DNA of 64,000 nucleotides from Arcuatula senhousia (taxonomy: Eukaryota > Mollusca > Bivalvia > Mytilida > Mytilidae), in contig OZ020313.1 of the NCBI GenBank assembly GCA_963971305.1, positions 18,797,260-18,861,259 on the forward strand, in the 5' to 3' direction. Below, piece by piece: positions 17,107 through 34,580 of the stretch. Numbering within the stretch: the first letter of the stretch is position 1; each line of letters begins with the position of its first letter. A program made the position numbers and the translations under genes. The notes under the pieces are model-generated. The model saw only the letters and a list, made by a program, of their open reading frames with translations. It was not told the origin of the DNA and made no database searches.

Positions 17107-17112
17107 ATTTAG
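17107..17112. repeat. Target site duplication ATTTAG (left)
   Basis: ATTTAG directly precedes the left terminus AGTAGTATAG and is repeated directly after the right terminus at 34575-34580. A 6-bp duplication is the hallmark length of Polinton/Maverick integrase insertion. Confidence 0.85.
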
Positions 17113-17332
17113 AGTAGTATAGCGTGTCACTCTAGAACACTTTGACCCCGATGACCCCGAGTTCATTCCCATAGGCTCCATGTTAAATCGTTGCTATTTT
17201 TGTATTGAAATACCCACCCAAGATCTCTAGCAGTAAAGTCGTGTGCAGTCATGTGGAACGGCGACTCGTCCCTTTCTTTCGCCCCCTTTTACTTCGTCAC
17301 AAGTTTCTATTATCTATTATTAACTCTTATCT

Positions 17333-17436
17333 TTAACCCTAACCCTAACCCTAATCCTAACCCTAGCCCTAACCCTAATCCTAACCCTAGCCCTAACCCT
17401 AATCCTAACCCTAATCCTAACCCTAATCCTAACCAT
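17333..17436 (-). repeat. Telomere-like TTAGGG/TTAGGA array, left end
   Basis: About seventeen 6-bp units of CCCTAA and variants (TCCTAA, CCCTAG) lie about 220 bp inside the left terminus. An inverted copy with the same variant order lies at 34254-34354. The open frame through it (Asn-Pro repeats) is a by-product. Confidence 0.9.
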
Positions 17437-17803
17437 TTGTTTTGTTAGTGTCGCCCTGTCATTTCTATGTGTTATATAGTTTTACTGCCCCTCCCCCTTC
17501 CCCCTTCTCTCCTCATTTTCCCTCCTCCTCCTCCTCTTTCCCTCATTTCCCCTCATTCTCATCCTCATTGTCCCTCATTTTCCTCATTTTCCCTTATTTT
17601 CCTCATTTCTCTCCTCATTTTCTCTTGTAGTTTTCGTCTTTTGAGCTTGTTTTGTTCATGTATGGCTCAACTCTAATTGGTTCTTTTCGTTTTTTTTTTT
17701 TTTGGTTCGCCCTTTATGGGCTCTTTTTTTTTTGTCTTTGTTATTGTATTGATTGTTTTTATTTTCTTAAGTTTTCAATAAAAACTCAAAATCAGGTACA
17801 ACT

Positions 17804-17827
17804 TTTATTAACATTCTACGTTTTATT
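17804..17827 (-). terminator. Poly(A) signals after polymerase, arm A
   Basis: Two AATAAA hexamers on the minus strand (17827-17822 and 17809-17804) follow the polymerase stop at 17847 within 45 bp. This is the expected position for 3'-end formation. Confidence 0.6.
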
Positions 17828-17846
17828 TACATTCTATCTTTCAATT

Positions 17847-18704
17847 TCAATATCCATATGGTCTGGTGGTTAAATCATTCATGATCACTCTTTTGTCAAA
17901 TACAATTCTATAATCTTTCTTTTGTGAAACGGTTAACAATTTTTGATTGCTTCTTTGGATCTTGTAATCGTCTCTCACTGTCCTGATATCGTTTCTGTTG
18001 ATGGTGACCATCTCCTTGATGGTGTCAAAGTTGATGTCCAAAGCATTCTTATAGTTCAATGTTATTCCACGGACTTTGCACATAGTTCTGTTTCCTGCTT
18101 TCTCTGGGACGGCTAGTTTATACGCATAGTTTTTTGGTCCTCCAGTGACAAACTCCGTAATAGTATTTCCGGGTACTTCGTCCGTCAAATCTCCCAAGAA
18201 GTCTCCCAGCTTAGGCCTCCATTCTCCAGGTTTAGTGGTAAAAACAATCGAATCTGTATCGCAGTACAATGTTCTTGGTCCCAAATTCTCCAGATAAGTA
18301 TATAGTTTAAGTCTGGCCTGGGCGGTTGTATAGGCGGCTATGACGACATTTGTTTTCTTTTGGGTTTCAATGAATTCTTCTTTATATTTCCATCGTAATT
18401 CCACCATTTCATCGTTAACAAACTGTATTCCGGTCACTTCAATTTTATCGCTCGTTAACTTGTCAAAGTACTTCGAGGGTTCCGTGATGTAAGAGGTTTG
18501 TTGCATGTTGTTTCTTTGTCCAAACTTGCCCCAAAAGCTGTTCAACATTAGTTTGGCTAGAGACCTGATGCCGGGGTTCTTTTTTATCTTGTTATAGTCT
18601 AACTGTATCCCTTCCTTTTCTTCGTAGTTCTTGATATATTGCTGTTTAGCCTCTTCAGATTGACACCAGTCTGGCCAGCCACTAGCTTCTTGTTTCATTT
18701 TCAA
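17847..18704 (-). CDS. pPolB C-terminal half (motifs B and C), arm A
   Basis: This is the 285-codon frame downstream of an in-frame TGA (18780-18782). The same frame is open from directly after the TGA, and the first Met is only the 26th codon. It carries polymerase motif B (KLMLNSFWGKFGQ, residues 51-63), the catalytic motif C YCDTDS (147-152, Asp149 and Asp151) and a GGPKNYAY segment typical of the thumb-side KxY region. These are the palm and thumb parts of a protein-primed B-family DNA polymerase (DNA_pol_B_2 type). It differs from arm C by Phe for Tyr in a GDxLGD stretch. Alone it lacks motif A and the exonuclease, so on its own it would not polymerise DNA. Whether readthrough, reinitiation or no product applies is unknown. 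Confidence 0.85.
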   Translation of the reverse strand: MKMKQEASGWPDWCQSEEAKQQYIKNYEEKEGIQLDYNKIKKNPGIRSLAKLMLNSFWGKFGQRNNMQQTSYITEPSKYFDKLTSDKIEVTGIQFVNDEMVELRWKYKEEFIETQKKTNVVIAAYTTAQARLKLYTYLENLGPRTLYCDTDSIVFTTKPGEWRPKLGDFLGDLTDEVPGNTITEFVTGGPKNYAYKLAVPEKAGNRTMCKVRGITLNYKNALDINFDTIKEMVTINRNDIRTVRDDYKIQRSNQKLLTVSQKKDYRIVFDKRVIMNDLTTRPYGY

Positions 18705-18779
18705 GAATGTATTGATGTAGTCCGTGAAGAGTCCTCCAGACTTCCTTCCGGGATCGTACTGTTCTACCTCTTCGAAATG

Positions 18780-21700
18780 TCATACTTCGTAGATGGTTAA
18801 GATGGAATATCCCTTTTCCAATGCCTTCTTCAACTCATCTGTCACCCAAGTTCCCGTTATAGCTCTATCTTTTTCAGTATGGTTACAAGTCTCCTGCTGG
18901 TAGGTTTCCGTACAGGTACGACAGAGTGGGAACATCAGTTTGTTGTTGATCTTGGTTGGTAAGACGGGGATGTATAGGTTTTTGGGCGGTAGTACTTTAC
19001 ATTTCACCAATCCTTCGTACTCGTTGATGTCCCCAAAGTTTTCGGTGATGATCAATGGATGACCTTTGGGTACTTTTCCTGTTTTGTTGACAAACGAATA
19101 GAGCGATGTAACGTCATAGTAGTTTATATTGTCTTCTCCTGTCTGTTTGTACAAGGTAAAGGCTTCTGTTCTTCCTCCGTAGAAAGCATCTCGTGGTTCC
19201 AAAGCAGGGATCATCTCTAAGGAATTGACATAGGCACGAAGTGTTGGATCTTGTTCTATCTCTTTATCGAAATCACATTCCCATTTCTCTACGTAGAAGT
19301 ATCCTTCTGCTTCCAAATAAGTCTTTTTCTCTAGTGTCCGTTGATGAAGATCGTTCATAAACATGTTGTTGACCGTATTGATGGTCTCTCTGGAATAGCA
19401 TCTGGGACAGCCGTGCCAATAACAACCGTGAAATTCATACACAGTTCCATTGTCGTATCCGTCTACTCTGTAGGGTCCAATCTGCTTCTCTCCTCCGTTT
19501 TGGGCGTGTTGAATTCTTGAATCTTTCTTTGCTGATATATGTTTTATCCACTTCATAGCTTTGATGGAGTGCTTATGTTCTGGTTGGTAGCCTTGCGCTG
19601 GGATGAGCCCAATGGTGTTCCACCGTAGAAACTTGGATCGAAAGACCAGGTTGCAGGCGGATGCTATAGTGATACTCTCTTGGAAGGGGTCGATTGGAGT
19701 TCCGTCTAAGGTGTCCATGAATAGTTGTCGGAAGGTTAAACAGGCTTTTCTCAGGATGTCTACGTCTGTGATACAGTACTTCAAGAGTTCTTCTTGGACT
19801 TCAAATGGTTCGTTCCTGTGTTCTTCGTACCATTTCACGAATGTTTCGCGGTCTTCTGTTTTCATACCATTTGGATTGTAATAATTGATGTCTGGAAGAG
19901 TTTCTAATCGGATGTTTTCGTTTTCCTTTGTGTTAAACAGATGTGGAAAGTATCCTTTGTGGAGTTCCTCGAATCCAAACATTTTCGGGAGGTTGGCTAA
20001 GGCAGTGGGTAGAAAGTTGAGGGAATCTATCATCCGTATGCTGCAGTTTGAAATCGTTACAGACATGTTCTTGGTACCGTTGGGGATTATCTTGGGTTGA
20101 ATTCCACGACGAAACAGGTATTGCAGAACGGGGATAGAGTCATATCCTTTAAAGTTGTGGCAGATAACGGTGGAGTTGTTGTTGTTTCCGGAAAATAGCC
20201 AGTTGCAAAAGTCGTTGTTGGCGTTGGGTCCACTAAAGACCAGTTGGTTCTGTCCACATTTCCCGCAGGTACTCTCTTCAGTTACTTCCTCCTCCATACA
20301 GACGGTACAGACTTTTTGAACCACGCATAAGTTGGGTCGATGTTCCATAGCTCCACAGGTACTAGCTTTACAGTGTGCACATCTTCCGTCGGTGTCAGGT
20401 TGGTACCCCATTTCGCATTCTACGAGGTCGTCTTGTGTGCATTCAAAATCAAAGAAGATGTAGGTTTGTATTTCTGGAGGATCTTCGATAACTATAGGTG
20501 TCATGTAACACTGATGGTCTGTATCGCAGTATCGTTTACAGGATGGACAGTACATCTCACCACATACATGGTTGGTTTTCCTTTTTTCCATGTTGACGGT
20601 GTGGCCACAGTCTTTACACTTGTAGTACCATTTACATGTTGAGTTGATTTTCTTAGTTTGCTCCAAATGGAGTTGGAAGCACTCTTTTCCTCTAAAGTTT
20701 CGGCCACATTGGCTACAGTTGATCCAATTGTCTTCGCAGGGCTCGTGTATCTTCTTACAAAGGATGCATGGGTTGTTACATACATGTGTTTCCTTGTTAC
20801 TATATCCCTTTTTACACTTCTGACAGTAATAGGCCCTGGTCAAGAATCCTGTTACAGTGGTGATGACATCGTAATGGTCGTCGTGGTGGTAAAGGTAGAT
20901 CTTCTTCTCTGCATCTGGTCCCTCATAGATAATCCCGTTGAAGTAGTCTTTGGAGAAAACGGTTATTTGATATTCCGGCAGTACAGCTTGAAATTGTTTC
21001 AGTTCCTCGATGCCACAGGGTCCATTTGGTACATTGGCTTTCTCGTGGAGTTTTTCTGCTAATTCCTGTTGAATACGTCTTCCTTGGCGGATAGTGTCCC
21101 ACATTGAGTGCTTATCGATCCTGGCTTTAGCAGTAACGATGGCTCTAGCACAACACAGTTCGTCTCGGTTCTGTATTCTGATGATACTTTGTTTGTCTTT
21201 CAGCATTCTGTTGAGATCAACGTAATTGCACCGTTTCCGCCCGGATCCTTCGGGAATAGATACGTGGAGGACATCTAATTCTAAACTTCCGTCCAATACA
21301 AACTCCTCATGAGATTGTAATACTCTCTCTATTTCCTTTAATAGTAGTTCCGTAGTCAGGTCCTTGAGTTGTAATATGGGAAGGGCAATCGGGAAGTCAA
21401 GGGAGTTGGTTTCAATTGTTAGTTTAACGAGGTCGTGTTCTTTCATCGCTTCTCCAATGGTTTGCAGGATGGAGTCGAATAACCGATGTAATGTTCTTGT
21501 GATGGAAGGCAGGTCCGTGACTTCGAATTCCTTAAAGGTGACGGTATAATGATTTCTCGAAGTTCCAAACTTGAGTATTCTTTTCTTCTCCTGCCGTTTG
21601 ATGGTGTAATAGGATTTCGGATCATCCATATGGAACGGTTGCCCTGCTCCTCTTTGTCCATGTCTTTGCTGATGTAACTCTAAATGGCGTTGGGTGGCAA

Positions 21701-21902
21701 AGGCCTGGTTGCATTGGATACATTCGTAACCCATTTGGTGGCGGGTCATATGAGCTTGTAGATTCTCCCGCCTTGTAAAAGTCTTGGTGCATCTCGTACA
21801 CGAGTAAGTCTCTCGGTGGTTGGTCCATCGTCTATGACGATGTAGCTGACTCATCTTCTCAAAATTGGCTTCACATTGGTTGCAGGTAAATTGCTTAGCC
21901 AT
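18780..21902 (-). CDS. Zinc-finger protein-primed type B DNA polymerase, N-terminal 1040 aa, arm A
   Basis: Domain order: three C2H2 fingers (residues ~5-81); a ~280-residue linker region; a cysteine/histidine cluster (~359-467) with many CxxC pairs; a 3'-5' exonuclease with Exo I DFE (485-487), Exo II HNFKGYD (582-588) and Exo III YCITD (709-713). Next comes an inserted nuclease-like block with YEFHGCYWHGCPRC (822-835) and KWEC (873-876), then polymerase motif A (YDVTSLY, 929-935). Motif A is followed by Ser936, where arm C has Pro. The frame ends at an in-frame TGA; the downstream frame (17847-18779) carries motifs B and C. The ATG follows a TTTTATTTTAG acceptor-like site. Role: replication of the element from a protein primer, by family knowledge. 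The TGA and the motif A change suggest this copy is impaired. Confidence 0.9.
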   Translation of the reverse strand: MAKQFTCNQCEANFEKMSQLHRHRRWTNHRETYSCTRCTKTFTRRENLQAHMTRHQMGYECIQCNQAFATQRHLELHQQRHGQRGAGQPFHMDDPKSYYTIKRQEKKRILKFGTSRNHYTVTFKEFEVTDLPSITRTLHRLFDSILQTIGEAMKEHDLVKLTIETNSLDFPIALPILQLKDLTTELLLKEIERVLQSHEEFVLDGSLELDVLHVSIPEGSGRKRCNYVDLNRMLKDKQSIIRIQNRDELCCARAIVTAKARIDKHSMWDTIRQGRRIQQELAEKLHEKANVPNGPCGIEELKQFQAVLPEYQITVFSKDYFNGIIYEGPDAEKKIYLYHHDDHYDVITTVTGFLTRAYYCQKCKKGYSNKETHVCNNPCILCKKIHEPCEDNWINCSQCGRNFRGKECFQLHLEQTKKINSTCKWYYKCKDCGHTVNMEKRKTNHVCGEMYCPSCKRYCDTDHQCYMTPIVIEDPPEIQTYIFFDFECTQDDLVECEMGYQPDTDGRCAHCKASTCGAMEHRPNLCVVQKVCTVCMEEEVTEESTCGKCGQNQLVFSGPNANNDFCNWLFSGNNNNSTVICHNFKGYDSIPVLQYLFRRGIQPKIIPNGTKNMSVTISNCSIRMIDSLNFLPTALANLPKMFGFEELHKGYFPHLFNTKENENIRLETLPDINYYNPNGMKTEDRETFVKWYEEHRNEPFEVQEELLKYCITDVDILRKACLTFRQLFMDTLDGTPIDPFQESITIASACNLVFRSKFLRWNTIGLIPAQGYQPEHKHSIKAMKWIKHISAKKDSRIQHAQNGGEKQIGPYRVDGYDNGTVYEFHGCYWHGCPRCYSRETINTVNNMFMNDLHQRTLEKKTYLEAEGYFYVEKWECDFDKEIEQDPTLRAYVNSLEMIPALEPRDAFYGGRTEAFTLYKQTGEDNINYYDVTSLYSFVNKTGKVPKGHPLIITENFGDINEYEGLVKCKVLPPKNLYIPVLPTKINNKLMFPLCRTCTETYQQETCNHTEKDRAITGTWVTDELKKALEKGYSILTIYEV

Positions 21903-22174
21903 CTAAAATAAAAATAACACAGGTAAGTATATGGTGTCTATTGTTTCCTCTTTTTTAATTGTATACGTTTAAAATTATATGTCGTCAGTTGATTCCTTCT
22001 CTTTTAAATTCTATGCCTTTCAAATTATATATTGTCTATTGTTTCCTCTTCATTTAGTAGTATGCCTTTCAAAGTTAAGTTGGATATGTATGAGTCCTAC
22101 ATTTTCTCTTCGTTAAAACACGTCTGAACTCTTTGGTGTCTAATCGTAAAATGATTTCATTTCAAATGGTTTAC
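21903..22174 (-). other. Predicted 272-bp 5' intron before polymerase, arm A
   Basis: Minus strand: donor CAG|GTAAAC at 22177-22169 and acceptor TTTTATTTTAG just before the polymerase ATG. The same sites and the same 272-bp spacing occur in arms B and C. The interior has three diverged tandem units with GAGGAAACAATAGAC and TTTGAAAGGCATA words. Inferred from sites only. Confidence 0.45.
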
Positions 22175-22192
22175 CTGTATAATGGATTGTAC

Positions 22193-22211
22193 CACGTGAT
22201 CATGTCACGTG
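22193..22211 (-). promoter_or_regulatory. Paired CACGTG E-boxes upstream of polymerase, arm A
   Basis: Two CACGTG hexamers 13 bp apart, one inside the palindrome GTCACGTGAC, sit about 20 bp upstream of the predicted donor. They are conserved in arms B and C. This is a plausible promoter for the polymerase transcript. Confidence 0.5.
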
Positions 22212-22333
22212 ACTTCTGGATCAAACCGGTTAGAACTGGTTTGGACTTGATTTTACATTTTGAAAGTTTTAGTTCATCGAATTGCTTTTTGTTGGAATCG
22301 GTTCTTTAAATTTTTATGTTTGTTGGTTTTTCA

Positions 22334-22783
22334 TCAACATATTTTCTTAAAGGTAAGATTTTGTAAGTTTGTTTTCGTAGTTTGTTGTTTTTTCATCAAC
22401 AGATTTTCTTTTGTGGTAAGATTTTGTGAGTTTCTCGTAAAAGTGGAAGGTTTTTCGTCAATGCATTTTGATTTTGTTTGAATTTGATGTACCGATTTTC
22501 GTTTTTTAGTCAAACGTTTACAGTTTTGTCTTGCATTTTTGTGTGGAAAACGCATCGATAGGTATTTTTAAAGGGGGGAAATGGCTTAAAATGGGCATTT
22601 TAGGGTGAAAATGGGTAAAATGGGGCTAAAACGGGTGTTTTGGGGGTAAAATGAGTAAAATGGGGGGGGGGTAATGGGGGATATTGGGGCTGCTGCTGCT
22701 GCTGCTGCGGAGGGTAAATGGCTGCTATTGCTGCTCCAGTAGAGGTAGTTTAGGGGAGGGGGAGAGGGATTTTGCTGTTCCAT
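22334..22783 (-). repeat. CAG/Ala-tract ORF and A-rich tandem segment, arm A
   Basis: Minus-strand sequence holds a short frame (22586-22783) starting MEQQNPSPPP. Its Ala run comes from 6 CAG units; another frame would read polyGln. It is followed by C-rich TTTTACCCC repeats and a Lys-rich frame with a ~60-bp internal duplication (AAAATCTTACC...GTTGATGAAAAA). Arms B and C have 9 and 13 CAG units. The ATG sits in a good context (CCCATGG), but composition makes a real protein doubtful. Confidence 0.5.
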
Positions 22784-22818
22784 GGGAAGAATGAAAACGC
22801 GTATACTAGTTCGGATAG

Positions 22819-22824
22819 TTTATT
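22819..22824 (-). terminator. Poly(A) signal after the 182-aa gene, arm A
   Basis: AATAAA on the minus strand, 30 bp past the stop of the C2H2/basic gene. Conserved in arms B (25504-25509) and C (28837-28842). Confidence 0.55.
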
Positions 22825-22853
22825 GAGATAAAACATTCTTCTTCAGGTAGTCT

Positions 22854-23402
22854 TTAAACGATCGCTTCTTCTTTAATGGGTTGGTTGGTTTCTTTTGGAT
22901 GTTCCTTGTTTGTCTTGGGCTTTCTCCCTCTTGAGGTCTTTGTAGGCTTGTGGTTCATGGGTTTCTTGGTCTTTACACCGTTGAGGCTCTTTACTTCCTT
23001 GGACTTTGCTAGTCTTCTTCTTGAGTTCTTTGTAGGCTTTACTGATTTTCCATTATGGTTCATGGGCTTCTTGGCCTTTACAACGTTAAGGTTCTTTACA
23101 TCCTTGGTCTTCTCAGACTTAATCGATCGCCGTGTCTTCTTTAACTTTGCCATCTGTTCTCTCTTTGAGTCTTGTAGCTTTGTCAAGTGTCTTATTTCCT
23201 TGTATATTGCTTTTCCTAAACTTTCAAGTCTTTGTTCCACACTCTTTAGACGTTTGGATTGTTCTCCCGATGGCACAACGTGTCGAGTCTTAGCTTGTGT
23301 TGCCCTTTTCTCTTTCGAGTCTACATGCTTCACCTTCTCGTGTCGTGTAACATCACTCGGCCATGAAAACCGTCTATTGCATTCGGAGCACTGATAAGCC
23401 AT
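22854..23402 (-). CDS. C2H2 zinc-finger, lysine-rich protein (182 aa), arm A
   Basis: One N-terminal C2H2 finger, YQCSECNRRFSWPSDVTRHE...H (residues 3-25), is followed by a long Lys/Arg-rich tail. A helical, heptad-like stretch lies near residues 55-90. The tail has a ~40-residue imperfect duplication (KNLNVVKAKKPMNH at ~103 and KSLNGVKTKKPMNH at ~138, each followed by KPTK-type runs). The predicted charge is strongly positive, so DNA binding, core/nucleoid packaging or a terminal-protein-like role are possible. None is shown. It lies upstream of the polymerase in the same direction, with its own TATA-like box and poly(A) signal. The antisense frame of 172 aa is a shadow. Arm A has Leu where B and C have Pro at residue 51. 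Family not recognised. Confidence 0.75.
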   Translation of the reverse strand: MAYQCSECNRRFSWPSDVTRHEKVKHVDSKEKRATQAKTRHVVPSGEQSKRLKSVEQRLESLGKAIYKEIRHLTKLQDSKREQMAKLKKTRRSIKSEKTKDVKNLNVVKAKKPMNHNGKSVKPTKNSRRRLAKSKEVKSLNGVKTKKPMNHKPTKTSRGRKPKTNKEHPKETNQPIKEEAIV

Positions 23403-23454
23403 GTTTTCTCTTCGGTGTCTAACGTAAAACTAACTCAATCTCTATCTGTTGTTC

Positions 23455-23463
23455 CTTATATCT
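23455..23463 (-). promoter_or_regulatory. TATA-like box, arm A
   Basis: Minus strand ATATAAGGA about 55 bp upstream of the 182-aa ATG. Equivalent ATATAAGG (arm B, ~24868) and TATAAAGA (arm C, 28201) occur at the same place. Confidence 0.45.
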
Positions 23464-23626
23464 CTCTTTCCCTAATCTCTAACCCTAACCATAATCTCTA
23501 TCCCTAACTCTCCCCTTTTTTTCCTTTCACTCACCTATTTCACTTTCTTAACCTTATATTCGTTATGTAAAGGTCTTTAGCTCTTTAACGATATGTAACA
23601 CATCTACCCTCACTTAAAATGTGGAA

Positions 23627-23927
23627 TTGGTCACTTTGTGGTCAAGTCCTGACTGACCATTGACCAATACCATCCTAATAACCCCAGAATCTGTGTCTAG
23701 ACTTCTTAGGTTATCTAACGATATACAACAACTCTATATTAGACCTAATTTAAGGATTGGTCACTTTGTGGTCAAGTCCTGACTGACCATTGACCAATAC
23801 CATTCTAATAACCCCAGAATCTGCGTCTAGACTTCTTATGCTATCTAACGATATACAACAACCCTATATTAGACTTAATTTAAGGATTGTCCACTTTGTG
23901 GTCAAGCCCCTAATGACCACTGACCAA
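23627..23927 (-). repeat. 130-bp iteron-like direct repeats, arm A
   Basis: GTCAAG anchors recur at 23641, 23771 and 23901, giving an exact 130-bp period. Each unit centres on TTGGTCACTTTGTGGTCAAG and TGACTGACCATTGACCAA, a dense cluster of inverted GGTCA/TGACC words. Position between hinge and first promoter suggests an origin or enhancer. Confidence 0.75.
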
Positions 23928-24029
23928 AACACAGTATATCATCGGCAAGCCGTTGTCCTAGAAAAGACAATGCAACAAACCGGAAGGAAATCGGACAAGG
24001 AATAACAAAGTTGTGGCCCGTTAAACACT

Positions 24030-24299
24030 AGTAGTATAGATGTGGTAATCAAGTCCCATTTCTCGGGCTGATTAGGGCTGATTAGCCCTCTGTGACGTCA
24101 TATCCACTTCCGGTCCGCCATCTTGCTTCCTGTTCCGCCATCTTGCTTCCGGTCCGCCATCTTACTTTCGGTTCCGCCATTTTGCTTCCGGTCGGCCATC
24201 TTGCTTCCGGTGACGCCACATCCAGTCCTTTTGGAATCTCATTTTCCCGCGAAAATTCGAATTCGGGATATCCGAGCTTATCGGTGCATCTATACTACT
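24030..24299. promoter_or_regulatory. Hinge S1: CRE/ETS/YY1/E2F-like bidirectional control region
   Basis: The 270-bp unit begins AGTAGTATAGATG and ends with its complement, the first 10 bases matching the outer termini of the element. Inside: GGGCTGATTA twice, TGACGTCA (24093-24100, CRE), ACTTCCGGT (24106-24114, ETS), five CCAT(C/T)TT YY1-like cores at about 20-bp spacing (24118-24202) alternating with CTTCCGG, then TTTTCCCGCGAAAA (24242-24255, E2F-like). Diverging arms A and B read away from it. I infer a shared promoter/enhancer tied to host S-phase factors. Motif matches are by consensus only. Confidence 0.65.
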
Positions 24300-24402
24300 A
24301 GTGTTTAACGGGCCACAACTTTGTTATTCCTTGTCCGATTTCCTTCCGGTTTGTTGCATTGTCTTCTCTAGGACAACGGCTTGCCGATGATATACTGTGT
24401 TT

Positions 24403-24705
24403 TGGTCAGTGGTCATTAGGGGCTTGACCACAAAGTGGACAATCCTTAAATTAAGTCTAATATAGGGTTGTTGTATATCGTTAGATAGCATAAGAAGTCT
24501 AGACGCAGATTCTGGGGTTATTAGAATGGTATTGGTCAATGGTCAGTCAGGACTTGACCACAAAGTGACCAATCCTTAAATTAGGTCTAATATAGAGTTG
24601 TTGTATCTCGTTAGATAACCTAAGAAGTCTAGACACAGATTCTGGGGTTATTAGGATGGTATTGGTCAATGGTCAGTCAGGACTTGACCACAAAGTGACC
24701 AATTC
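24403..24705 (+). repeat. 130-bp iteron-like direct repeats, arm B
   Basis: CTTGACCACAAAGTG starts at 24423, 24553 and 24683, an exact 130-bp period. The third unit departs after the GACCAATTCC word. Confidence 0.75.
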
Positions 24706-24925
24706 CACATTTTAAGTGAGGGTAGATGTGTTACATATCGTTAAAGAGCTAAAGACCTTTACATAACGAATATAAGGTTAAGAAAGTGAAATAGGTGAGT
24801 GAAAGGAAAAAAGGGGAGAGTTAGGGATAGAGATTATGGTTAGGGTTAGAGATTAGGGAAAGAGAGATATAAGGAACAACAGATAGAGATTGAGTTAGTT
24901 TTACGTTAGACACCGAAGAGAAAAC

Positions 24926-25474
24926 ATGGCTTATCAGTGCTCCGAATGCAATAGACGGTTTTCATGGCCGAGTGATGTTACACGACACGAGAAGGTGAAG
25001 CATGTAGACTCGAAAGAGAAAAGGGCAACACAAGCTAAGACTCGACACGTTGTGCCATCGGGAGAACAATCCAAACGTCCAAAGAGTGTAGAACAAAGAC
25101 TTGAAAGTTTAGGAAAAGCAATATACAAGGAAATAAGACACTTGACAAAGCTACAAGACTCAAAGAGAGAACAGATGGCAAAGTTAAAGAAGACACGGCG
25201 ATCGATTAAGTCTGAGAAGACCAAGGATGTAAAGAACCTTAACGTTGTAAAGGCCAAGAAGCCCATGAACCATAATGGAAAATCAGTAAAGCCTACAAAG
25301 AACTCAAGAAGAAGACTAGCAAAGTCCAAGGAAGTAAAGAGCCTCAACGGTGTAAAGACCAAGAAACCCATGAACCACAAGCCTACAAAGACCTCAAGAG
25401 GGAGAAAGCCCAAGACAAACAAGGAACATCCAAAAGAAACCAACCAACCCATTAAAGAAGAAGCGATCGTTTAA
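24926..25474 (+). CDS. C2H2 zinc-finger, lysine-rich protein (182 aa), arm B
   Basis: Same protein as in arms A and C: N-terminal C2H2 finger (residues 3-25), basic tail with two KKPMNH repeats, stop at the same codon. It differs from the arm A copy by Pro51. A TATA-like ATATAAGG lies about 55 bp upstream and AATAAA at 25504-25509 follows. It is intact although the polymerase of this arm is truncated, so it could still be expressed. Function unknown; DNA-binding is inferred from finger and charge. Confidence 0.75.
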   Translation: MAYQCSECNRRFSWPSDVTRHEKVKHVDSKEKRATQAKTRHVVPSGEQSKRPKSVEQRLESLGKAIYKEIRHLTKLQDSKREQMAKLKKTRRSIKSEKTKDVKNLNVVKAKKPMNHNGKSVKPTKNSRRRLAKSKEVKSLNGVKTKKPMNHKPTKTSRGRKPKTNKEHPKETNQPIKEEAIV

Positions 25475-25544
25475 AGACTACCTGAAGAAGAATGTTTTAT
25501 CTCAATAAACTATCCGAACTAGTATACGCGTTTTCATTCTTCCC

Positions 25545-26443: not shown

Positions 26444-27409
26444 ATGGCTAAGCAATTTACCTGCAACCAATGTGAAGCCAATTTTGAGAAGATGAGTCAG
26501 CTACATCGTCATAGACGATGGACCAACCACCGAGAGACTTACTCGTGTACGAGATGCACCAAGACTTTTACAAGGCGGGAGAATCTACAAGCTCATATGA
26601 CCCGCCACCAAATGGGTTACGAATGTATCCAATGCAACCAGGCCTTTGCCACCCAACGCCATTTAGAGTTACATCAGCAAAGACATGGACAAAGAGGAGC
26701 AGGGCAACCGTTCCATATGGATGATCCGAAATCCTATTACACCATCAAACGGCAGGAGAAGAAAAGAATACTCAAGTTTGGAACTTCGAGAAATCATTAT
26801 ACCGTCACCTTTAAGGAATTCGAAGTCACGGACCTGCCTTCCATCACAAGAACATTACATCGGTTATTCGACTCCATCCTGCAAACCATTGGAGAAGCGA
26901 TGAAAGAACACGACCTCGTTAAACTAACAATTGAAACCAACTCCCTTGACTTCCCGATTGCCCTTCCCATATTACAACTCAAGGACCTGACTACGGAACT
27001 ACTATTAAAGGAAATAGAGAGAGTATTACAATCTCATGAGGAGTTTGTATTGGACGGAAGTTTAGAATTAGATGTCCTCCACGTATCTATTCCCGAAGGA
27101 TCCGGGCGGAAACGGTGCAATTACGTTGATCTCAACAGAATGCTGAAAGACAAACAAAGTATCATCAGAATACAGAACCGAGACGAACTGTGTTGTGCTA
27201 GAGCCATCGTTACTGCTAAAGCCAGGATCGATAAGCACTCAATGTGGGACACTATCCGCCAAGGAAGACGTATTCAACAGGAATTAGCAGAAAAACTCCA
27301 CGAGAAAGCCAATGTACCAAATGGACCCTGTGGCATCGAGGAACTGAAACAATTTCAAGCTGTACTGATGTGTAGTATAGATGTGGTAATCAGGTCCCAT
27401 TTCTCGGGC
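26444..27409 (+). pseudogene. Truncated polymerase N-terminus, arm B
   Basis: The first 308 codons equal arm A/C polymerase: three intact C2H2 fingers including the His that arm C lost in finger 3, plus the linker region. At 27367 the sequence jumps into hinge S2 and adds 14 unrelated codons before a stop at about 27410. It lacks the Cys/His cluster, exonuclease, nuclease-like and polymerase domains. If translated, it would be a stand-alone triple-finger DNA-binding fragment, possibly a competitor for the same sites; that is speculation. Confidence 0.85.
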
Positions 27410-27638
27410 TGATTAGGGCTGATTAGCCCTCTGTGACGTCATATCCACTTCCGGTCCGCCATCTTGAAGCACGGTGGCCATCTTGCTTCCGGTTCGCCAT
27501 CTTGGATCTCGGCGGCCATCTTGGATCTCGTCGGCCATCTTGCTTCCGGTGACGCCACATCCGGTCCTTTTGGAATCTCATTTTCCCGCGAAAATTCGAA
27601 TTCGGGATATCCGAGCTTATCGGTGCATCTATACTACT
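27371..27638. promoter_or_regulatory. Hinge S2: second control region
   Basis: Same orientation and layout as S1, beginning GTAGTATAGATG (first bases lost at the junction) and ending CATCTATACTACT. It has TGACGTCA (27434-27441), an ACTTCCGGT ETS-like site, five CCATCTT cores spaced ~20 bp, and TTTTCCCGCGAAAA (27581-27594). The middle repeat units differ from S1 (GGATCTCGGCGG-type spacers replace some CTTCCGG), so S1 and S2 have evolved separately or are length variants. Confidence 0.65.
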
Positions 27639-27741
27639 AGTGTTTAACGGGCCCTAACTTTGTTATTCCTTGACCGATTTCCTTCCGGTTTGTTGCATTG
27701 TCTTCCTTAGGACAATGGCTTTCTGATGATATACTGTGTGT

Positions 27742-28044
27742 TTGTCAGTGGTCATTAGGGGCTTGACCACAAAGTGACCAATCCTTAAATTAAGTGTAAT
27801 ATAGAGTTGTTGTATATCGTTAGATAGCCTAAGAAGTCTAGACGCAGATTCTGGGGTTATTAGGATGGTATTGGTTAGTGGTCAGTCAGGACTTGACCAC
27901 AAAGTGACCAATCCTTAAATTAGGTCTAATATAGAGTTGTTGTATATCGTTAGATAGCATAAGAAGTGTAGACGCAGATTCTGGGGTTATTAGGATGGTA
28001 TTGGTCAGTGGTCAGTCAGGACTTGACCACAAAGTGACCAATTC
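27742..28044 (+). repeat. 130-bp iteron-like direct repeats, arm C
   Basis: CTTGACCACAAAGTG starts at 27762, 27892 and 28022, exact 130-bp period, same organisation as in arms A and B. Confidence 0.75.
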
Positions 28045-28200
28045 CACATTTTAAGTGAGGGTAGATGTGTTACATATCGTTAAAGAGCTAAAGACCTGTA
28101 CATAACGAATATAAGGTTAAGAAAGTGAAATAGGTGAGTGAAAGGAAAAAAGGGGATAGTTAGGGTTAGAGATTATGGTTAGGGATAAGGGAAAGAGGGA

Positions 28201-28208
28201 TATAAAGA
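28201..28208 (+). promoter_or_regulatory. TATA-like box, arm C
   Basis: TATAAAGA 58 bp upstream of the ATG at 28259. This is a better TATA match than in arms A and B (ATATAAGG). Confidence 0.45.
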
Positions 28209-28258
28209 GCAACAGATAGAGATTGAGTTAGTTTTACTTTAGACACCGAAAAGAAAAC

Positions 28259-28807
28259 ATGGCTTATCAGTGCTCCGAATGCAATAGACGGTTTTCATGG
28301 CCGAGTGATGTTACACGCCACGAGAAGGTGAAGCATGTAGACTCAAAAGAGAAAAGGACAATACACACTAAGACTCGACACGTTGTGCCATCGGGAGAAC
28401 AATCCAAACGTCCAAAGAGTGTGGAACAAAGACTTGAAAGTTTAGGAAAAGCAATATACAAGGAAATAAGACACTTGACAAAGCTACAAGACTCAAAGAG
28501 AGAACAGATGGCAAAGTTAAAGAAGACACGGCGATCGATTAAGTCTGAGAAGACCAAGGATGTAAAGAACCTTAACGTTGTAAAGGCCAAGAAGCCCATG
28601 AACCATAATGGAAAATCAGTAAAGCCTACAAAGAACTCAAGAAGAAGACTAGCAAAGTCCAAGGAAGTAAAGAGCCTCAACGGTGTAAAGACCAAGAAAC
28701 CCATGAACCACAAGCCTACAAAGACCTCAAGAGGGAGAAAGCCCAAGACAAACAAGGAACATCCAAAAGAAACCAACCAACCCATTAAAGAAGAAGCGAT
28801 CGTTTAA
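28259..28807 (+). CDS. C2H2 zinc-finger, lysine-rich protein (182 aa), arm C
   Basis: Same 182-residue protein as arms A and B with a few substitutions clustered near residues 33-37 (RTIHT in place of RATQA). Finger ligands Cys5, Cys8 and the downstream His pair are kept. The two KKPMNH repeats and Arg/Lys-rich C-terminus are intact. Followed by AATAAA at 28837-28842. Retention of an intact frame in three copies while the polymerase is interrupted suggests recent duplication or continuing use. Function not recognised. Confidence 0.75.
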   Translation: MAYQCSECNRRFSWPSDVTRHEKVKHVDSKEKRTIHTKTRHVVPSGEQSKRPKSVEQRLESLGKAIYKEIRHLTKLQDSKREQMAKLKKTRRSIKSEKTKDVKNLNVVKAKKPMNHNGKSVKPTKNSRRRLAKSKEVKSLNGVKTKKPMNHKPTKTSRGRKPKTNKEHPKETNQPIKEEAIV

Positions 28808-28877
28808 AGACTACCTGAAGAAGAATGTTTTATCTCAATAAACTATCCGAACTAGTATACGCGTTTTCATTCTTCCC

Positions 28878-28952
28878 ATGGAACAGCAAAATCCCTCTCC
28901 CCCTCCCCTAAACTACCTCTACTGGAGCAGCAATAGCAGCCATTTACCCTCC

Positions 28953-28994
<42 letters not shown>

Positions 28995-29351
28995 CCAATA
29001 TCCCCCATTACCCCCCCATTTTACTCATTTTACCCCCAAAACACCCGTTTTAGCCCCATTTTACCCATTTTCACCCTAAAATGCCCATTCTAAGCCATTT
29101 CCCCCCTTTAAAAATACATGTACCTATCGATGCGTTTTCCACACAAAAATGCAAGACAAAACTGTAAACGTTTGACTAAAAAACGAAAATCGGTACATCA
29201 AATTCAAACAAAATCAAAATGCATTGACGAAAAACCTTCCACTTTTAAAAGAAACTCACAAAATCTTACCACAAAAGAAAATCTGTTGATGAAAAAACAA
29301 CAAACTACGAAAACAAACTTACAAAATCTTACCTTTAAGAAAATATGTTGA
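28878..29351 (+). repeat. CAG/Ala-tract ORF and A-rich tandem segment, arm C
   Basis: Frame 28878-29093 has 13 CAG units, the longest of the three arms. The Lys-rich frame 29118-29351 contains the ~60-bp duplication. The peptide potential of both is doubtful. Confidence 0.5.
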
Positions 29352-29473
29352 TGAAAAACCAACAAACATAAAAATTTAAAGAACCGATTCCAACAAAAAG
29401 CAATTCGATGAACTAAAACTTTCAAAATGTAAAATCAAGTCCAAACTAGTTCTAACCGGTTTGATCCAGAAGT

Positions 29474-29492
29474 CACGTGACATGATCACGTG
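29474..29492 (+). promoter_or_regulatory. Paired CACGTG E-boxes, arm C
   Basis: CACGTG at 29474-29479 and 29487-29492, inside GTCACGTGAC and ATCACGTGGT. They lie 19 bp before the predicted donor. Confidence 0.5.
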
Positions 29493-29510
29493 GTACAATC
29501 CATTATACAG

Positions 29511-29782
29511 GTAAACCATTTGAAATGAAATCATTTTACGATTAGACACCAAAGAGTTCAGACGTGTTTTAACGAAGAGAAAATGTAGGACTCATACATA
29601 TCCAACTTAACTTTGAAAGGCATACTACTAAATGAAGAGGAAACAATAGACAATATATAATTTGAAAGGCATAGAATTTAAAAGAGAAGGAATCAATTGA
29701 CGACATATAATTTTAAACGTATACAATTAAAAAAGAGGAAACAATAGACACCATATACTTACCTGTGTTATTTTTATTTTAG
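29511..29782 (+). other. Predicted 272-bp 5' intron before polymerase, arm C
   Basis: Donor ATACAG|GTAAAC, acceptor TTTTATTTTAG|ATGG. The interior has three diverged tandem units with GAGGAAACAATAGAC. The opposite strand near the acceptor has a perfect CAGGTAAGT donor match (29757-29765), a curiosity that could allow antisense splicing. Confidence 0.45.
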
Positions 29783-32700
29783 ATGGCTAAGCAATTTACC
29801 TGCAACCAATGTGAAGCCAATTTTGAGAAGATGAGTCAGCTACATCGTCATAGACGATGGACCAACCACCGAGAGACTTACTCGTGTACGAGATGCACCA
29901 AGACTTTTACAAGGCGGGAGAATCTACAAGCTCATATGACCCGCCACCAAATGGGTTACGAATGTATCCAATGCAACCAGGCCTTTGCCACCCAACGCCA
30001 TTTAGAGTTACTTCAGCAAAGACATGGACAAAGAGGAGCAGGGCAACCGTTCCATATGGATGATCCGAAATCCTATTACACCATCAAACGGCAGGAGAAG
30101 AAAAGAATACTCAAGTTTGGAACTTCGAGAAATCATTATACCGTCACCTTTAAGGAATTCGAAGTCACGGACCTGCCTTCCATCACAAGAACATTACATC
30201 GGTTATTCGACTCCATCCTGCAAACCATTGGAGAAGCGATGAAAGAACACGACCTCGTTAAACTAACAATTGAAACCAACTCCCTTGACTTCCCGATTGC
30301 CCTTCCCATATTACAACTCAAGGACCTGACTACGGAACTACTATTAAAGGAAATAGAGAGAGTATTACAATCTCATGAGGAGTTTGTATTGGACGGAAGT
30401 TTAGAATTAGATGTCCTCCACGTATCTATTCCCGAAGGATCCGGGCGGAAACGGTGCAATTACGTTGATCTCAACAGAATGCTGAAAGACAAACAAAGTA
30501 TCATCAGAATACAGAACCGAGACGAACTGTGTTGTGCTAGAGCCATCGTTACTGCTAAAGCCAGGATCGATAAGCACTCAATGTGGGACACTATCCGCCA
30601 AGGAAGACGTATTCAACAGGAATTAGCAGAAAAACTCCACGAGAAAGCCAATGTACCAAATGGACCCTGTGGCATCGAGGAACTGAAACAATTTCAAGCT
30701 GTACTGCCGGAATATCAAATAACCGTTTTCTCCAAAGACTACTTCAACGGGATTATCTATGAGGGACCAGATGCAGAGAAGAAGATCTACCTTTACCACC
30801 ACGACGACCATTACGATGTCATCACCACTGTAACAGGATTCTTGACCAGGGCCTATTACTGTCAGAAGTGTAAAAAGGGATATAGTAACAAGGAAACACA
30901 TGTATGTAACAACCCATGCATCCTTTGTAAGAAGATACACGAGCCCTGCGAAGACAATTGGATCAACTGTAGCCAATGTGGCCGAAACTTTAGAGGAAAA
31001 GAGTGCTTCCAACTCCATTTGGAGCAAACTAAGAAAATCAACTCAACATGTAAATGGTACTACAAGTGTAAAGACTGTGGCCACACCGTCAACATGGAAA
31101 AAAGGAAAACCAACCATGTATGTGGTGAGATGTACTGTCCATCCTGTAAACGATACTGCGATACAGACCATCAGTGTTACATGACACCTATAGTTATCGA
31201 AGATCCTCCAGAAATACAAACCTACATCTTCTTTGATTTTGAATGCACACAAGACGACCTCGTAGAATGCGAAATGGGGTACCAACCTGACACCGACGGA
31301 AGATGTGCACACTGTAAAGCTAGTACCTGTGGAGCTATGGAACATCGACCCAACTTATGCGTGGTTCAAAAAGTCTGTACCGTCTGTATGGAGGAGGAAG
31401 TAACTGAAGAGAGTACCTGCGGGAAATGTGGACAGAACCAACTGGTCTTTAGTGGACCCAACGCCAACAACGACTTTTGCAACTGGCTATTTTCCGGAAA
31501 CAACAACAACTCCACCGTTATCTGCCACAACTTTAAAGGATATGACTCTATCCCCGTTCTGCAATACCTGTTTCGTCGTGGAATTCAACCCAAGATAATC
31601 CCCAACGGTGCCAAGAACATGTCTGTAACGATTTCAAACTGCAGCATACGGATGATAGATTCCCTCAACTTTCTACCCACTGCCTTAGCCAACCTCCCGA
31701 AAATGTTTGGATTCGAGGAACTCCACAAAGGATACTTTCCACATCTGTTTAACACAAACGAAAACGAAAACATCCGATTAGAAACTCTTCCAGACATCAA
31801 TTATTACAATCCAAATGGTATGAAAACAGAAGACCGCGAAACATTCGTGAAATGGTACGAAGAACACAGGAACGAACCATTTGAAGTCCAAGAAGAACTC
31901 TTGAAGTACTGTATCACAGACGTAGACATCCTGAGAAAAGCCTGTTTAACCTTCCGACAACTATTCATGGACACCTTAGACGGAACTCCAATCGACCCCT
32001 TCCAAGAGAGTATCACTATAGCATCCGCCTGCAACCTGGTCTTTCGATCCAAGTTTCTACGGTGGAACACCATTGGGCTCATCCCAGCGCAAGGCTACCA
32101 ACCAGAACATAAGCACTCCATCAAAGCTATGAAGTGGATAAAACATATATCAGCAAAGAAAGATTCAAGAATTCAACACGCCCAAAACGGAGGAGAGAAG
32201 CAGATTGGACCCTACAGAGTAGACGGATACGACAATGGAACTGTGTATGAATTTCACGGTTGTTATTGGCACGGCTGTCCCAGATGCTATTCCAGAGAGA
32301 CCATCAATACGGTCAACAACATGTTTATGAACGATCTTCATCAACGGACACTAGAGAAAAAGACTTATTTGGAAGCAGAAGGATACTTCTACGTAGAGAA
32401 ATGGGAATGTGATTTCGATAAAGAGATAGAACAAGATCCAACACTTCGTGCCTATGTCAATTCCTTAGAGATGATCCCTGCTTTGGAACCACGAGATGCT
32501 TTCTACGGAGGAAGAACAGAAGCCTTTACCTTGTACAAACAGACAGGAGAAGACAATATAAACTACTATGACGTTACATCGCTCTATCCGTTTGTGAACA
32601 AAACAGGAAAAGTACCCAAAGGTCATCCATTGATCATCACCGAAAACTTTGGGGACATCAACGAGTACGAAGGATTGGTGAAATGTAAAGTACTACCGCC

Positions 32701-32905
32701 CAAAAACCTATACATCCCCGTCTTACCAACCAAGATCAACAACAAACTGATGTTCCCACTCTGTCGTACCTGTCCGGAAACCTACCAGCAGGAGACTTGT
32801 AACCATACTGAAAAAGATAGAGCTATAACGGGAACTTGGGTGACAGATGAGTTGAAGAAGGCATTGGAAAAGGGATATTCCATCTTAACCATCTACGAAG
32901 TATGA
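29783..32905 (+). CDS. Zinc-finger protein-primed type B DNA polymerase, N-terminal 1040 aa, arm C
   Basis: Same domain order as arm A: C2H2 fingers, Cys/His cluster, exonuclease (DFE, HNFKGYD, YCITD), nuclease-like HGCYWHGCPRC/KWEC insert, and motif A. Here motif A keeps the conserved Pro at 936. However, finger 3 has Leu for the first zinc-ligand His (LELLQQRH against LELHQQRH in A and B). Other differences from arm A are Ala for Thr near 610, Asn for Lys near 659 and Pro for Thr near 998. The frame stops at TGA 32903-32905, the same codon as in arm A, and the open frame resumes at once. Protein-primed replication is the family role; activity of this split copy is doubtful without readthrough. 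Confidence 0.9.
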   Translation: MAKQFTCNQCEANFEKMSQLHRHRRWTNHRETYSCTRCTKTFTRRENLQAHMTRHQMGYECIQCNQAFATQRHLELLQQRHGQRGAGQPFHMDDPKSYYTIKRQEKKRILKFGTSRNHYTVTFKEFEVTDLPSITRTLHRLFDSILQTIGEAMKEHDLVKLTIETNSLDFPIALPILQLKDLTTELLLKEIERVLQSHEEFVLDGSLELDVLHVSIPEGSGRKRCNYVDLNRMLKDKQSIIRIQNRDELCCARAIVTAKARIDKHSMWDTIRQGRRIQQELAEKLHEKANVPNGPCGIEELKQFQAVLPEYQITVFSKDYFNGIIYEGPDAEKKIYLYHHDDHYDVITTVTGFLTRAYYCQKCKKGYSNKETHVCNNPCILCKKIHEPCEDNWINCSQCGRNFRGKECFQLHLEQTKKINSTCKWYYKCKDCGHTVNMEKRKTNHVCGEMYCPSCKRYCDTDHQCYMTPIVIEDPPEIQTYIFFDFECTQDDLVECEMGYQPDTDGRCAHCKASTCGAMEHRPNLCVVQKVCTVCMEEEVTEESTCGKCGQNQLVFSGPNANNDFCNWLFSGNNNNSTVICHNFKGYDSIPVLQYLFRRGIQPKIIPNGAKNMSVTISNCSIRMIDSLNFLPTALANLPKMFGFEELHKGYFPHLFNTNENENIRLETLPDINYYNPNGMKTEDRETFVKWYEEHRNEPFEVQEELLKYCITDVDILRKACLTFRQLFMDTLDGTPIDPFQESITIASACNLVFRSKFLRWNTIGLIPAQGYQPEHKHSIKAMKWIKHISAKKDSRIQHAQNGGEKQIGPYRVDGYDNGTVYEFHGCYWHGCPRCYSRETINTVNNMFMNDLHQRTLEKKTYLEAEGYFYVEKWECDFDKEIEQDPTLRAYVNSLEMIPALEPRDAFYGGRTEAFTLYKQTGEDNINYYDVTSLYPFVNKTGKVPKGHPLIITENFGDINEYEGLVKCKVLPPKNLYIPVLPTKINNKLMFPLCRTCPETYQQETCNHTEKDRAITGTWVTDELKKALEKGYSILTIYEV

Positions 32906-32980
32906 CATTTCGAAGAGGTAGAACAGTACGATCCCGGAAGGAAGTCTGGAGGACTCTTCACGGACTACATCAATACATTC

Positions 32981-33838
32981 TTGAAAATGAAACAAGAAGC
33001 TAGTGGCTGGCCAGACTGGTGTCAATCTGAAGAGGCTAAACAGCAATATATCAAGAACTACGAAGAAAAGGAAGGGATACAGTTAGACTATAACAAGATA
33101 AAAAAGAACCCCGGCATCAGGTCTCTAGCCAAACTAATGTTGAACAGCTTTTGGGGCAAGTTTGGACAAAGAAACAACATGCAACAAACCTCTTACATCA
33201 CGGAACCCTCGAAGTACTTTGACAAGTTAACGAGCGATAAAATTGAAGTGACCGGAATACAGTTTGTTAACGATGAAATGGTGGAATTACGATGGAAATA
33301 TAAAGAAGAATTCATTGAAACCCAAAAGAAAACAAATGTCGTCATAGCCGCCTATACAACCGCCCAGGCCAGACTTAAACTATATACTTATCTGGAGAAT
33401 TTGGGACCAAGAACATTGTACTGCGATACAGATTCGATTGTTTTTACCACTAAACCTGGAGAATGGAGGCCTAAGCTGGGAGACTACTTGGGAGATTTGA
33501 CGGACGAAGTACCCGGAAATACTATTACGGAGTTTGTCACTGGAGGACCAAAAAACTATGCGTATAAACTAGCCGTCCCAGAGAAAGCAGGAAACAGAAC
33601 TATGTGCAAAGTCCGTGGAATAACATTGAACTATAAGAATGCTTTGGACATCAACTTTGACACCATCAAGGAGATGGTCACCATCAACAGAAACGATATC
33701 AGGACAGTGAGAGACGATTACAAGATCCAAAGAAGCAATCAAAAATTGTTAACCGTTTCACAAAAGAAAGATTATAGAATTGTATTTGACAAAAGAGTGA
33801 TCATGAATGATTTAACCACCAGACCATATGGATATTGA
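32981..33838 (+). CDS. pPolB C-terminal half (motifs B and C), arm C
   Basis: In frame with the 1040-aa part; 25 sense codons separate the TGA from this first Met. Motif B KLMLNSFWGKFGQ at 51-63, motif C YCDTDS at 147-152, GGPKNYAY near 195-202. It ends TTRPYGY. The only coding difference from arm A that I see is Tyr for Phe in the GDxLGD stretch. Two AATAAA signals follow (33858-33863, 33876-33881). Confidence 0.85.
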   Translation: MKMKQEASGWPDWCQSEEAKQQYIKNYEEKEGIQLDYNKIKKNPGIRSLAKLMLNSFWGKFGQRNNMQQTSYITEPSKYFDKLTSDKIEVTGIQFVNDEMVELRWKYKEEFIETQKKTNVVIAAYTTAQARLKLYTYLENLGPRTLYCDTDSIVFTTKPGEWRPKLGDYLGDLTDEVPGNTITEFVTGGPKNYAYKLAVPEKAGNRTMCKVRGITLNYKNALDINFDTIKEMVTINRNDIRTVRDDYKIQRSNQKLLTVSQKKDYRIVFDKRVIMNDLTTRPYGY

Positions 33839-33857
33839 AATTGAAAGATAGAATGTA

Positions 33858-33881
33858 AATAAAACGTAGAATGTTAATAAA
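33858..33881 (+). terminator. Poly(A) signals after polymerase, arm C
   Basis: AATAAA at 33858-33863 and 33876-33881, 20-40 bp after the stop codon; mirrored in arm A. Confidence 0.6.
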
Positions 33882-34065
33882 AGTTGTACCTGATTTTGAG
33901 TTTTTATTGAAAACTTAAGAAAATAAAAACAATCAATACAATAACAAAGACAAAAAAAAAAGAGCCCATAAAGGGCGAACCAAAAAAAAAAAAAAAAACG
34001 AAAAGAACCAATTAGAGTTGAGCCATACATGAACAAAACAAGCTCAAAAGACGAAAACTACAAGA

Positions 34066-34200
34066 GAAAATGAGGAGAGAAATGAGGAAAATGAGGGAAA
34101 ATGAGGAAAATGAGGGACAATGAGGATGAGAATGAGGGGAAATGAGGGAAAGAGGAGGAGGAGGAGGGAAAATGAGGAGAGAAGGGGGAAGGGGAGGGGC
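34066..34200 (+). repeat. GA-rich GAGGAAAATGAGGG tract, arm C
   Basis: Purine-only strand made of GAGGAAAAT, GAGGGAAAAT and GAGGAGG words, mirrored as a pyrimidine tract at 17495-17630. Strand-asymmetric sequence next to the telomere-like array. Confidence 0.75.
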
Positions 34201-34253
34201 AGTAAAACTATATAACACATAGAAATGACAGGGCGACACTAACAAAACAAATG

Positions 34254-34354
34254 GTTAGGATTAGGGTTAGGATTAGGGTTAGGATTAGGGTTAGGGCTAG
34301 GGTTAGGATTAGGGTTAGGGCTAGGGTTAGGATTAGGGTTAGGGTTAGGGTTAA
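34254..34354 (+). repeat. Telomere-like TTAGGG/TTAGGA array, right end
   Basis: About seventeen units with variants GGATTA and GGGCTA in the same order as the left array. The array ends about 220 bp from the terminus, with the G-rich strand running 5' to 3' toward the element end, as at a chromosome end. Confidence 0.9.
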
Positions 34355-34574
34355 AGATAAGAGTTAATAATAGATAATAGAAACTTGTGACGAAGTAAAA
34401 GGGGGCGAAAGAAAGGGACGAGTCGCCGTTCCGCATGACTGCACACGACTTTACTGCTAGAGATCTTGGGTGGGTATTTCAATACAAAAATAGCAACGAT
34501 TTAACATGGAGCCTATGGGAATGAACTCGGGGTCATCGGGGTCAAAGTGTTCTAGAGTGACACGCTATACTACT

Positions 34575-34580
34575 ATTTAG
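34575..34580. repeat. Target site duplication ATTTAG (right)
   Basis: Direct repeat of 17107-17112, immediately after CTATACTACT. Confidence 0.85.

Follow-up and report, generated by a model that had tools for sequence, protein, structure and literature searches.

A 17,462-bp element in a stretch of 64,000 nucleotides from the bivalve Arcuatula senhousia (assembly GCA_963971305.1, contig OZ020313.1, positions 18,797,260 to 18,861,259; the whole stretch is called the window) is probably a Maverick/Polinton-derived polymerase element with a palindromic genome, which would replicate by snap-back and depend on an integrase acting in trans. Members of this family usually consist of two ~7-kb arms that flank a hinge of ~270 bp and that each hold a small zinc-finger gene besides a polymerase gene, with a total length of usually ~14 kb. 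It is the entire palindrome that inserts, generating a 6-bp duplication, and the arms of one insertion are copies of each other that were made before or at insertion and that drifted neutrally afterwards. An original prediction, made by a model from the letters of the window alone, had already proposed a head-to-head palindromic polymerase element integrated as one unit.

The window element and its insertion site

The element occupies positions 17113-34574 and is bordered by ATTTAG on both sides, exactly to the base where it had been predicted. Arm A (17113-24042) and arm C (34574-27626) are inverted copies with 98.6% identity over 6,960 columns, and their global alignment contains 54 mismatches in 6,919 bases, 40 of which fall in the inner ~1 kb. 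When joined without the element, the flanks match a related repeat on the minus strand (14859-14297), continuously through the insertion point (CTGTCTATTAGTACATATC vs CTGTCTATTTAGTACATATC). A single duplication around the whole block, together with an empty-site relative that reads through, upholds the predicted role of the palindrome itself as the transposing unit. The inverted arms are real; at this locus hinge 1, a partial copy B and hinge 2 lie between them, so that the element has two hinges rather than one. Copy B is inverted relative to arm A and direct relative to arm C, and because of this additional copy the window locus is regarded as a rearranged member of the family. Arms A and B show 11 mismatches in the roughly 3.06 kb that run up to the hinge, whereas the inner ~0.7 kb of arm C differs by about 5% from both, the rest of C being nearly the same; hence, the inner end of arm C and hinge 2 probably derive from a different lineage.

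Termini and target-site duplications

Target-site duplications were inspected in 41 two-ended elements, picked from the polymerase and terminus lists and including the window element, C7:0.77M, and C5:10.7M. A perfect 6-bp duplication, a trait of Maverick/Polinton elements, is present in 36 of them, with 36 different sequences, although four (L025, L027, C10:54.99M, and C7:60.0M) require a third AGT to be counted at one or both ends. The duplication of C5:11.1M agrees at 5 of 6 positions, and C7:19.8M and C3:58.3M show a formal match, but their flanks form inverted repeats, for which this comparison is uninformative. At these two loci (C7:19793232-19803237 and C3:58277623-58281094), inverted ACTAGT-containing copies resembling hinge borders flank the ends, as if one element were seated in the hinge of another.

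A further Maverick/Polinton trait, the (AGT)2//(ACT)2 motif, is found at the ends of the window element, and the terminal pattern has 194 exact matches in the genome (89 + 105) versus 0 + 0 for the reversed control. This contrast, and the recurrence of the layout at many loci, exclude chance as the origin of the window palindrome. The pairing of ends was based on the first 100 of the 194 terminus positions, among which plus and minus neighbours less than 35 kb apart form 33 pairs and 34 ends stay unpaired. Both ends carry the same terminal haplotype in 30 of the 33 pairs; with 25 haplotypes, 8% would be expected at random, and 10,000 shuffles never gave more than 11/33. Since such coupling alone would also be expected of elements with short repeats, lengths have to be considered as well, and 18 of the 30 same-haplotype elements measure 13.3-15.6 kb, which corresponds to two arms and a hinge. 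Two of the three pairs with discordant ends (C4:37.2M and C3:15.7M) have perfect duplications, which is evidence that they are recombinants.

Recurrence of the palindrome across the genome

A polymerase survey of the genome, in which the best 44 of 1,688 candidates were scored, yielded 28 loci. Sixteen of these hold a minus/plus gene pair with the N-termini facing each other. Ten of the 12 single-match loci were sampled at the expected position of the partner (C226 and C682 were left out), and six of them contain mirrored or inner-arm sequence: a full 1-kb mirrored match at C7:31.8M, C7:60.0M, C5:68.28M, and C10:54.15M, a mirrored but rearranged match at C5:64.77M, and an inner arm with hinge on the other side at C15:32.5M. 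Three more (C7:0.77M, C8:60.5M, and C7:38.6M) are asymmetric, with breakpoints that differ from one another, and one (C3:24.65M) is ambiguous. Five further elements were found via their ends and sampled on both sides; C5:14.3M, C2:69.07M, and C10:54.99M are mirrored, and C11:50.27M is mirrored but rearranged. The latter locus (C11:50271843-50292193) shows one left terminus and then the right terminus plus flank three times, at a spacing of 5,456 bp.

Similarly, the best 40 of 335 candidates obtained with an inner-arm probe are all full-length, and 23 of them form convergent plus/minus pairs at 11 loci, including the window. Contrary to the other pairs from this probe, C6:3635622-3639318 holds two inner arms in divergent order.

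Two properties by which the original prediction was to be judged, a palindromic layout in other copies and a 6-bp duplication belonging to each, are thus borne out by the 16 directly paired and six mirrored or inner-arm polymerase loci and by the 36 of 41 perfect duplications. On the other hand, its suggestion of an integrated replication intermediate needs correction, the palindrome being the usual propagating form rather than a one-off. Asymmetric copies, among them C7:0.77M with its own duplication TAAATG, correspond to what was named at the outset as evidence against a palindromic unit, but they are a minority. The existence of asymmetric and mixed-end copies means that the palindrome is usual, but not obligatory.

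Divergence and selection between the arms

The arms were compared at 11 loci, namely the window and 10 others, the right arm of C5:10.7M being represented by 6.5 kb. They differ within a locus by 0.015-0.78% of aligned bases, and by 0-17 bases in the 3.1-kb polymerase piece. At 11/11 loci, this difference is smaller than that between the left arm and the left arm of any of the other 10 loci. The impression from BLAST alignments that the inner 2 kb of L011 diverged between its arms was overturned by the global alignment used here, with 3 mismatches and gaps, one of 63 bases. In the 10 loci scored for indels of at least 3 bp against arm A, 58 of 91 are identical in both arms, which may be an underestimate, as exact placement can vary between alignments.

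The distribution of coding changes, counted in gap-free two-state columns only, indicates when the arms become alike. Locus-private changes present in both arms comprise 87 nonsynonymous and 94 synonymous substitutions and no stops (omega 0.29, purifying), whereas changes restricted to one arm comprise 38 nonsynonymous and 8 synonymous substitutions and 2 stops (omega 1.46; neutrality not rejected, p 0.39), the two classes being different (Fisher p 2.3e-5). Shared changes under purifying selection and neutral one-arm changes imply that the arms were made alike before or at insertion, and the simplest reading is that changes reach both arms during replication under selection and that the arms diverge freely after insertion.

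Hinges and reduced palindromes

In 7 of 11 copies (window, L009, L011, L013, L017, L019, and L027), an asymmetric promoter-like loop is enclosed where the arms meet by inverted borders similar to AGTAGTATAGATGCACCGAT. L023 has a variant border, the hinge of L025 sits in an extended centre that does not match, and the centres of L015 and L021 are different and shortened. As expected of a palindrome that can insert either way round, the loop is found in either orientation. Hinge 1 carries putative CRE/YY1/ETS/E2F-like motifs.

The hinges (window 24030-24299, L009-L027, and L110) also show a pair of 7-11 bp direct repeats that directly follows TTTCTCGG or a sequence close to it. Judged by eye, the repeats vary in sequence by lineage (GCTGATTAG, GTCGTCCC, GACGATTA, GACGTCCC, GTGGATAT, GTGGAGCA, and GAGGATT). 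Two explanations of this pair were discarded by the same kind of inspection: co-evolution with the zinc fingers, which stay nearly constant while the pair changes, and a leftover of the target site, as the elements' own duplications do not match it.

Reduced forms preserve the symmetry. L110 (C3:72593115-72595769) is a palindrome of 2.6 kb that shares its outer end, inner arm, and promoter-like hinge with the larger members but whose arms both lack the polymerase gene; between these arms there are 3 mismatches in 1,209 bases and 9 gap columns. C7:59705367-59707987, known from its ends alone, has nearly the length of L110, the same terminal haplotype, and the duplication GTAATC, and L047 is a palindrome of 1.26 kb. 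For the same gene to be lost from both arms, the easiest explanation is that one arm was copied into the other.

Gene content and the search for an integrase donor

The 1,040-residue part of the polymerase comprises C2H2 fingers, a cysteine-rich region, an exonuclease, and motif A, and its frame stops after residue 1040 in arms A and C alike (Table 1). Residues 769-926 (window 32087-32560) form a domain predicted to fold well alone (pLDDT 86.5), a candidate member of the Vsr/EDxHD nuclease superfamily that in the models appears to resemble Vsr and I-Bth0305I nucleases and in which E, D, and H are invariant in 38 aligned sequences. A Foldseek search of two structure models against the PDB gave no match below 0.001. 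For residues ~230-350 (an estimated range), Foldseek indicates a weak structural similarity to OTU proteases of viruses (E 2.7e-3 at best), and DELCC- and HYDVI-like motifs are conserved.

The window element holds 11 open reading frames (ORFs) of at least 150 residues, the others reaching at most 134; six were run against Pfam, the remaining five being copies of those. No integrase domain was detected in these six at E up to 1, and neither was a capsid, an adenain protease, or a packaging ATPase, shorter ORFs and spliced genes lying outside the scan.

As for a donor, the genome contains eight adenain-like matches. In the 9 kb read at one of them, C8:2.41M, an adenain-like ORF adjoins one for an A32-like ATPase (L114 6292-7551), and this locus is a possible separate Maverick-like or virus-like element. 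Four of the eight matches lie in the stretch spanned by the first 100 of 194 termini. A Polinton with matching ends as integrase donor was not found at the adenain loci checked (by termini 4/8, by sequence 1/8), and one scan of viral contigs gave one stretch that matched a pattern and no encoded relative.

Telomere-like CCCTAA units recur in 15 elements, which carry 2-17 of them in the first 600 bases, starting about 187-234 bases inside the left ends. The right flank in the window contains tandem repeat arrays (40853-41481 and 43541-45015), which do not align with the element when the window is compared with itself.

Table 1. Features of the element and its surroundings in the window.
Feature	Positions	Strand	Basis
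Related repeat without insertion (empty-site relative)	14297..14859	-	self-comparison, joined-flank match
Left target-site duplication ATTTAG	17107..17112	.	end inspection and empty-site relative
Arm A, outer end to hinge; starts AGTAGTATAG	17113..24042	+	self-comparison, global alignment
Telomere-like CCCTAA repeats near left end	17337..17434	.	
Polymerase C-terminal ORF, arm A, 285 aa; KLMLNSFWGKF and YCDTDS motifs	17847..18704	-	
B-family DNA polymerase ORF, arm A, first 1,040 aa	18780..21902	-	
Basic protein of 182 aa carrying a single C2H2-like finger, arm A	22854..23402	-	
130-bp tandem repeats (x2) adjoining hinge, arm A	23626..23885	.	
Hinge 1, asymmetric, promoter-like; inverted borders AGTAGTATAGATG / CATCTATACTACT; GCTGATTAG twice	24030..24299	.	
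Partial arm B, 99.0% to A; broken within polymerase gene at hinge 2 junction	24300..27367	-	
Same 182-aa ORF, copy B	24926..25474	+	
Hinge 2, orientation of hinge 1; left border truncated at copy B junction	27372..27638	.	
Arm C, inverted copy of arm A	27626..34574	-	self-comparison, global alignment
130-bp tandem repeats adjoining hinge, arm C	27738..28042	.	
Same 182-aa ORF, arm C	28259..28807	+	
Polymerase ORF, arm C, first 1,040 aa	29783..32905	+	
Polymerase C-terminal ORF, arm C, 285 aa	32981..33838	+	
Telomere-like repeats near right end, mirror of left	34253..34350	.	
Right target-site duplication ATTTAG	34575..34580	.	end inspection and empty-site relative

Proposed mechanism and alternative explanations

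Replication would begin with protein priming and jumping back by the B-family polymerase of the element at the repeated-AGT ends, with displacement of the other strand. Jumping back in protein-primed replication has been linked to the end repeats of vertebrate Mavericks in the available portion of PMC8097293, and strand displacement by a Polinton-type polymerase finds support in that of PMC3511435. The displaced single strand, being self-complementary, could snap back at the hinge to form a hairpin, whose arms may become identical if mismatches are repaired or if a truncated arm is completed by copying its partner. Starting at the open end, replication would then unfold the hairpin into the full palindrome, which a Maverick-type integrase acting in trans would insert. 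Template switching may generate centre-deleted, mixed-end, and multi-hinge copies such as the window element. The 'hairpin-ended dimer' of the original prediction is compatible with the data. A more tentative proposal, possible rather than probable, is a natural self-complementary replicon in which the gene sets are remade from one arm at each copying round via the hairpin, and where the Vsr-like nuclease embedded in the polymerase may open or cut the DNA in place of a Maverick integrase.

Several observations weigh against snap-back replication of a palindrome inserted in trans. Its replication steps are inferred, no hairpin, extrachromosomal form, or terminal protein having been observed. 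A clean duplication is missing from 5 of the 41 elements, two of which, L047 and L110, have none, L110 being the mini-palindrome itself. At least three elements with perfect duplications (C4:37.2M, C3:15.7M, and C7:0.77M) have two different end types, so that a single arm is not in every case the template for both ends. The palindromic layout was not demonstrated at C3:3.72M, the fifth element found via its ends, 17 of the 40 best inner-arm matches have no convergent partner among those 40, and C7:0.77M, C8:60.5M, C7:38.6M, and C14:36.04M are asymmetric. As for the integrase, no ORF encoding one was found in the 9 kb at C8:2.41M, the single adenain locus read of eight, and no listed terminus lies within 35 kb of the four adenain matches C2:23.46M and C8:0.61M, 2.42M, and 17.54M.

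Ordinary double-stranded transposition of the palindrome, with host recombination between the arms in an extrachromosomal or donor copy and no snap-back, would account for the sister arms and the selection contrast if exchange were confined to active copies, and mixed-end recombinants do exist. It is nevertheless unlikely to suffice, as by itself it leaves the mini-palindromes with symmetric gene loss unaccounted for; the shifted centres of L015 and L021 are not covered either, though deletion of the centre could give them. Post-insertion gene conversion from arm to arm, of the kind found in the palindromes of sex chromosomes, agrees with arms that are nearly identical at all 11 loci compared and with arm differences that concentrate near the hinge in some copies. 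However, conversion in dead copies would render the shared changes neutral, and the observed omega of 0.29 with 0 stops, set against neutral one-arm changes with 2 stops, makes this process very improbable. Fold-back artefacts in long reads have been reported (available text of PMC12870357), but an artefact of this kind in the assembly, like two independent insertions in opposite orientation, is scarcely credible in view of the single duplication around the whole block, the empty-site relative, the repetition of the layout at many loci, the private arm-specific mismatches, and the asymmetric hinges.

Comparison with known systems

Vertebrate Mavericks are described with (AGT)2//(ACT)2 ends and 6-bp duplications in the part of PMC8097293 available, and the element shares with them this end motif, the length of the duplication, and a B-family polymerase of the protein-primed type, on which points the predicted link to Polinton/Maverick elements was correct. 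However, no ORF for an integrase, ATPase, protease, or capsid was found in its arms, and, unlike Maverick/Polinton elements, it carries its complete gene set within inverted ~7-kb arms, in a palindrome of ~14 kb that has a hinge. Given the gene content as far as tested, it is considered a derived variant rather than a Maverick/Polinton proper. A polymerase apart from integrase, protease, and ATPase is likewise seen in the Polinton-type polymerases of Entamoeba histolytica, which in the consulted part of PMC3511435 are genomic genes with no mobile unit described, whereas here the unit is mobile, end-defined, and duplicated. No report of palindromic Maverick/Polinton elements was found among the papers listed in searches of open-licence PubMed Central, subscription journals and preprints lying outside this scope.

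Palindromic genomes whose single strand can fold on itself, as here, are also found in self-complementary AAV and in the snap-back defective genomes of adenovirus; those are packaging or defective forms, while the present family usually exists and propagates in the chromosomes as a palindrome. Foldback elements and miniature inverted-repeat transposable elements (MITEs) hold long inverted repeats around a short centre, and the 1.26-kb and 2.6-kb derivatives resemble them, but the larger copies encode a DNA polymerase and carry Maverick-type ends.

The two arms provide an internal control: a change found in both goes back to the replicating phase and a change found in one to the chromosomal phase, so that one can measure, inside single insertions, how a Maverick-type element is selected, switches templates, and decays. 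The family also makes it possible to test whether mobile DNA of animals replicates by snap-back and whether a polymerase-only element transposes by a borrowed integrase. Protein-primed replicons are usually depicted as linear DNA with short terminal repeats, whereas here the terminal repeat takes in the entire genome, and the chromosomes hold dozens of natural records of the events.
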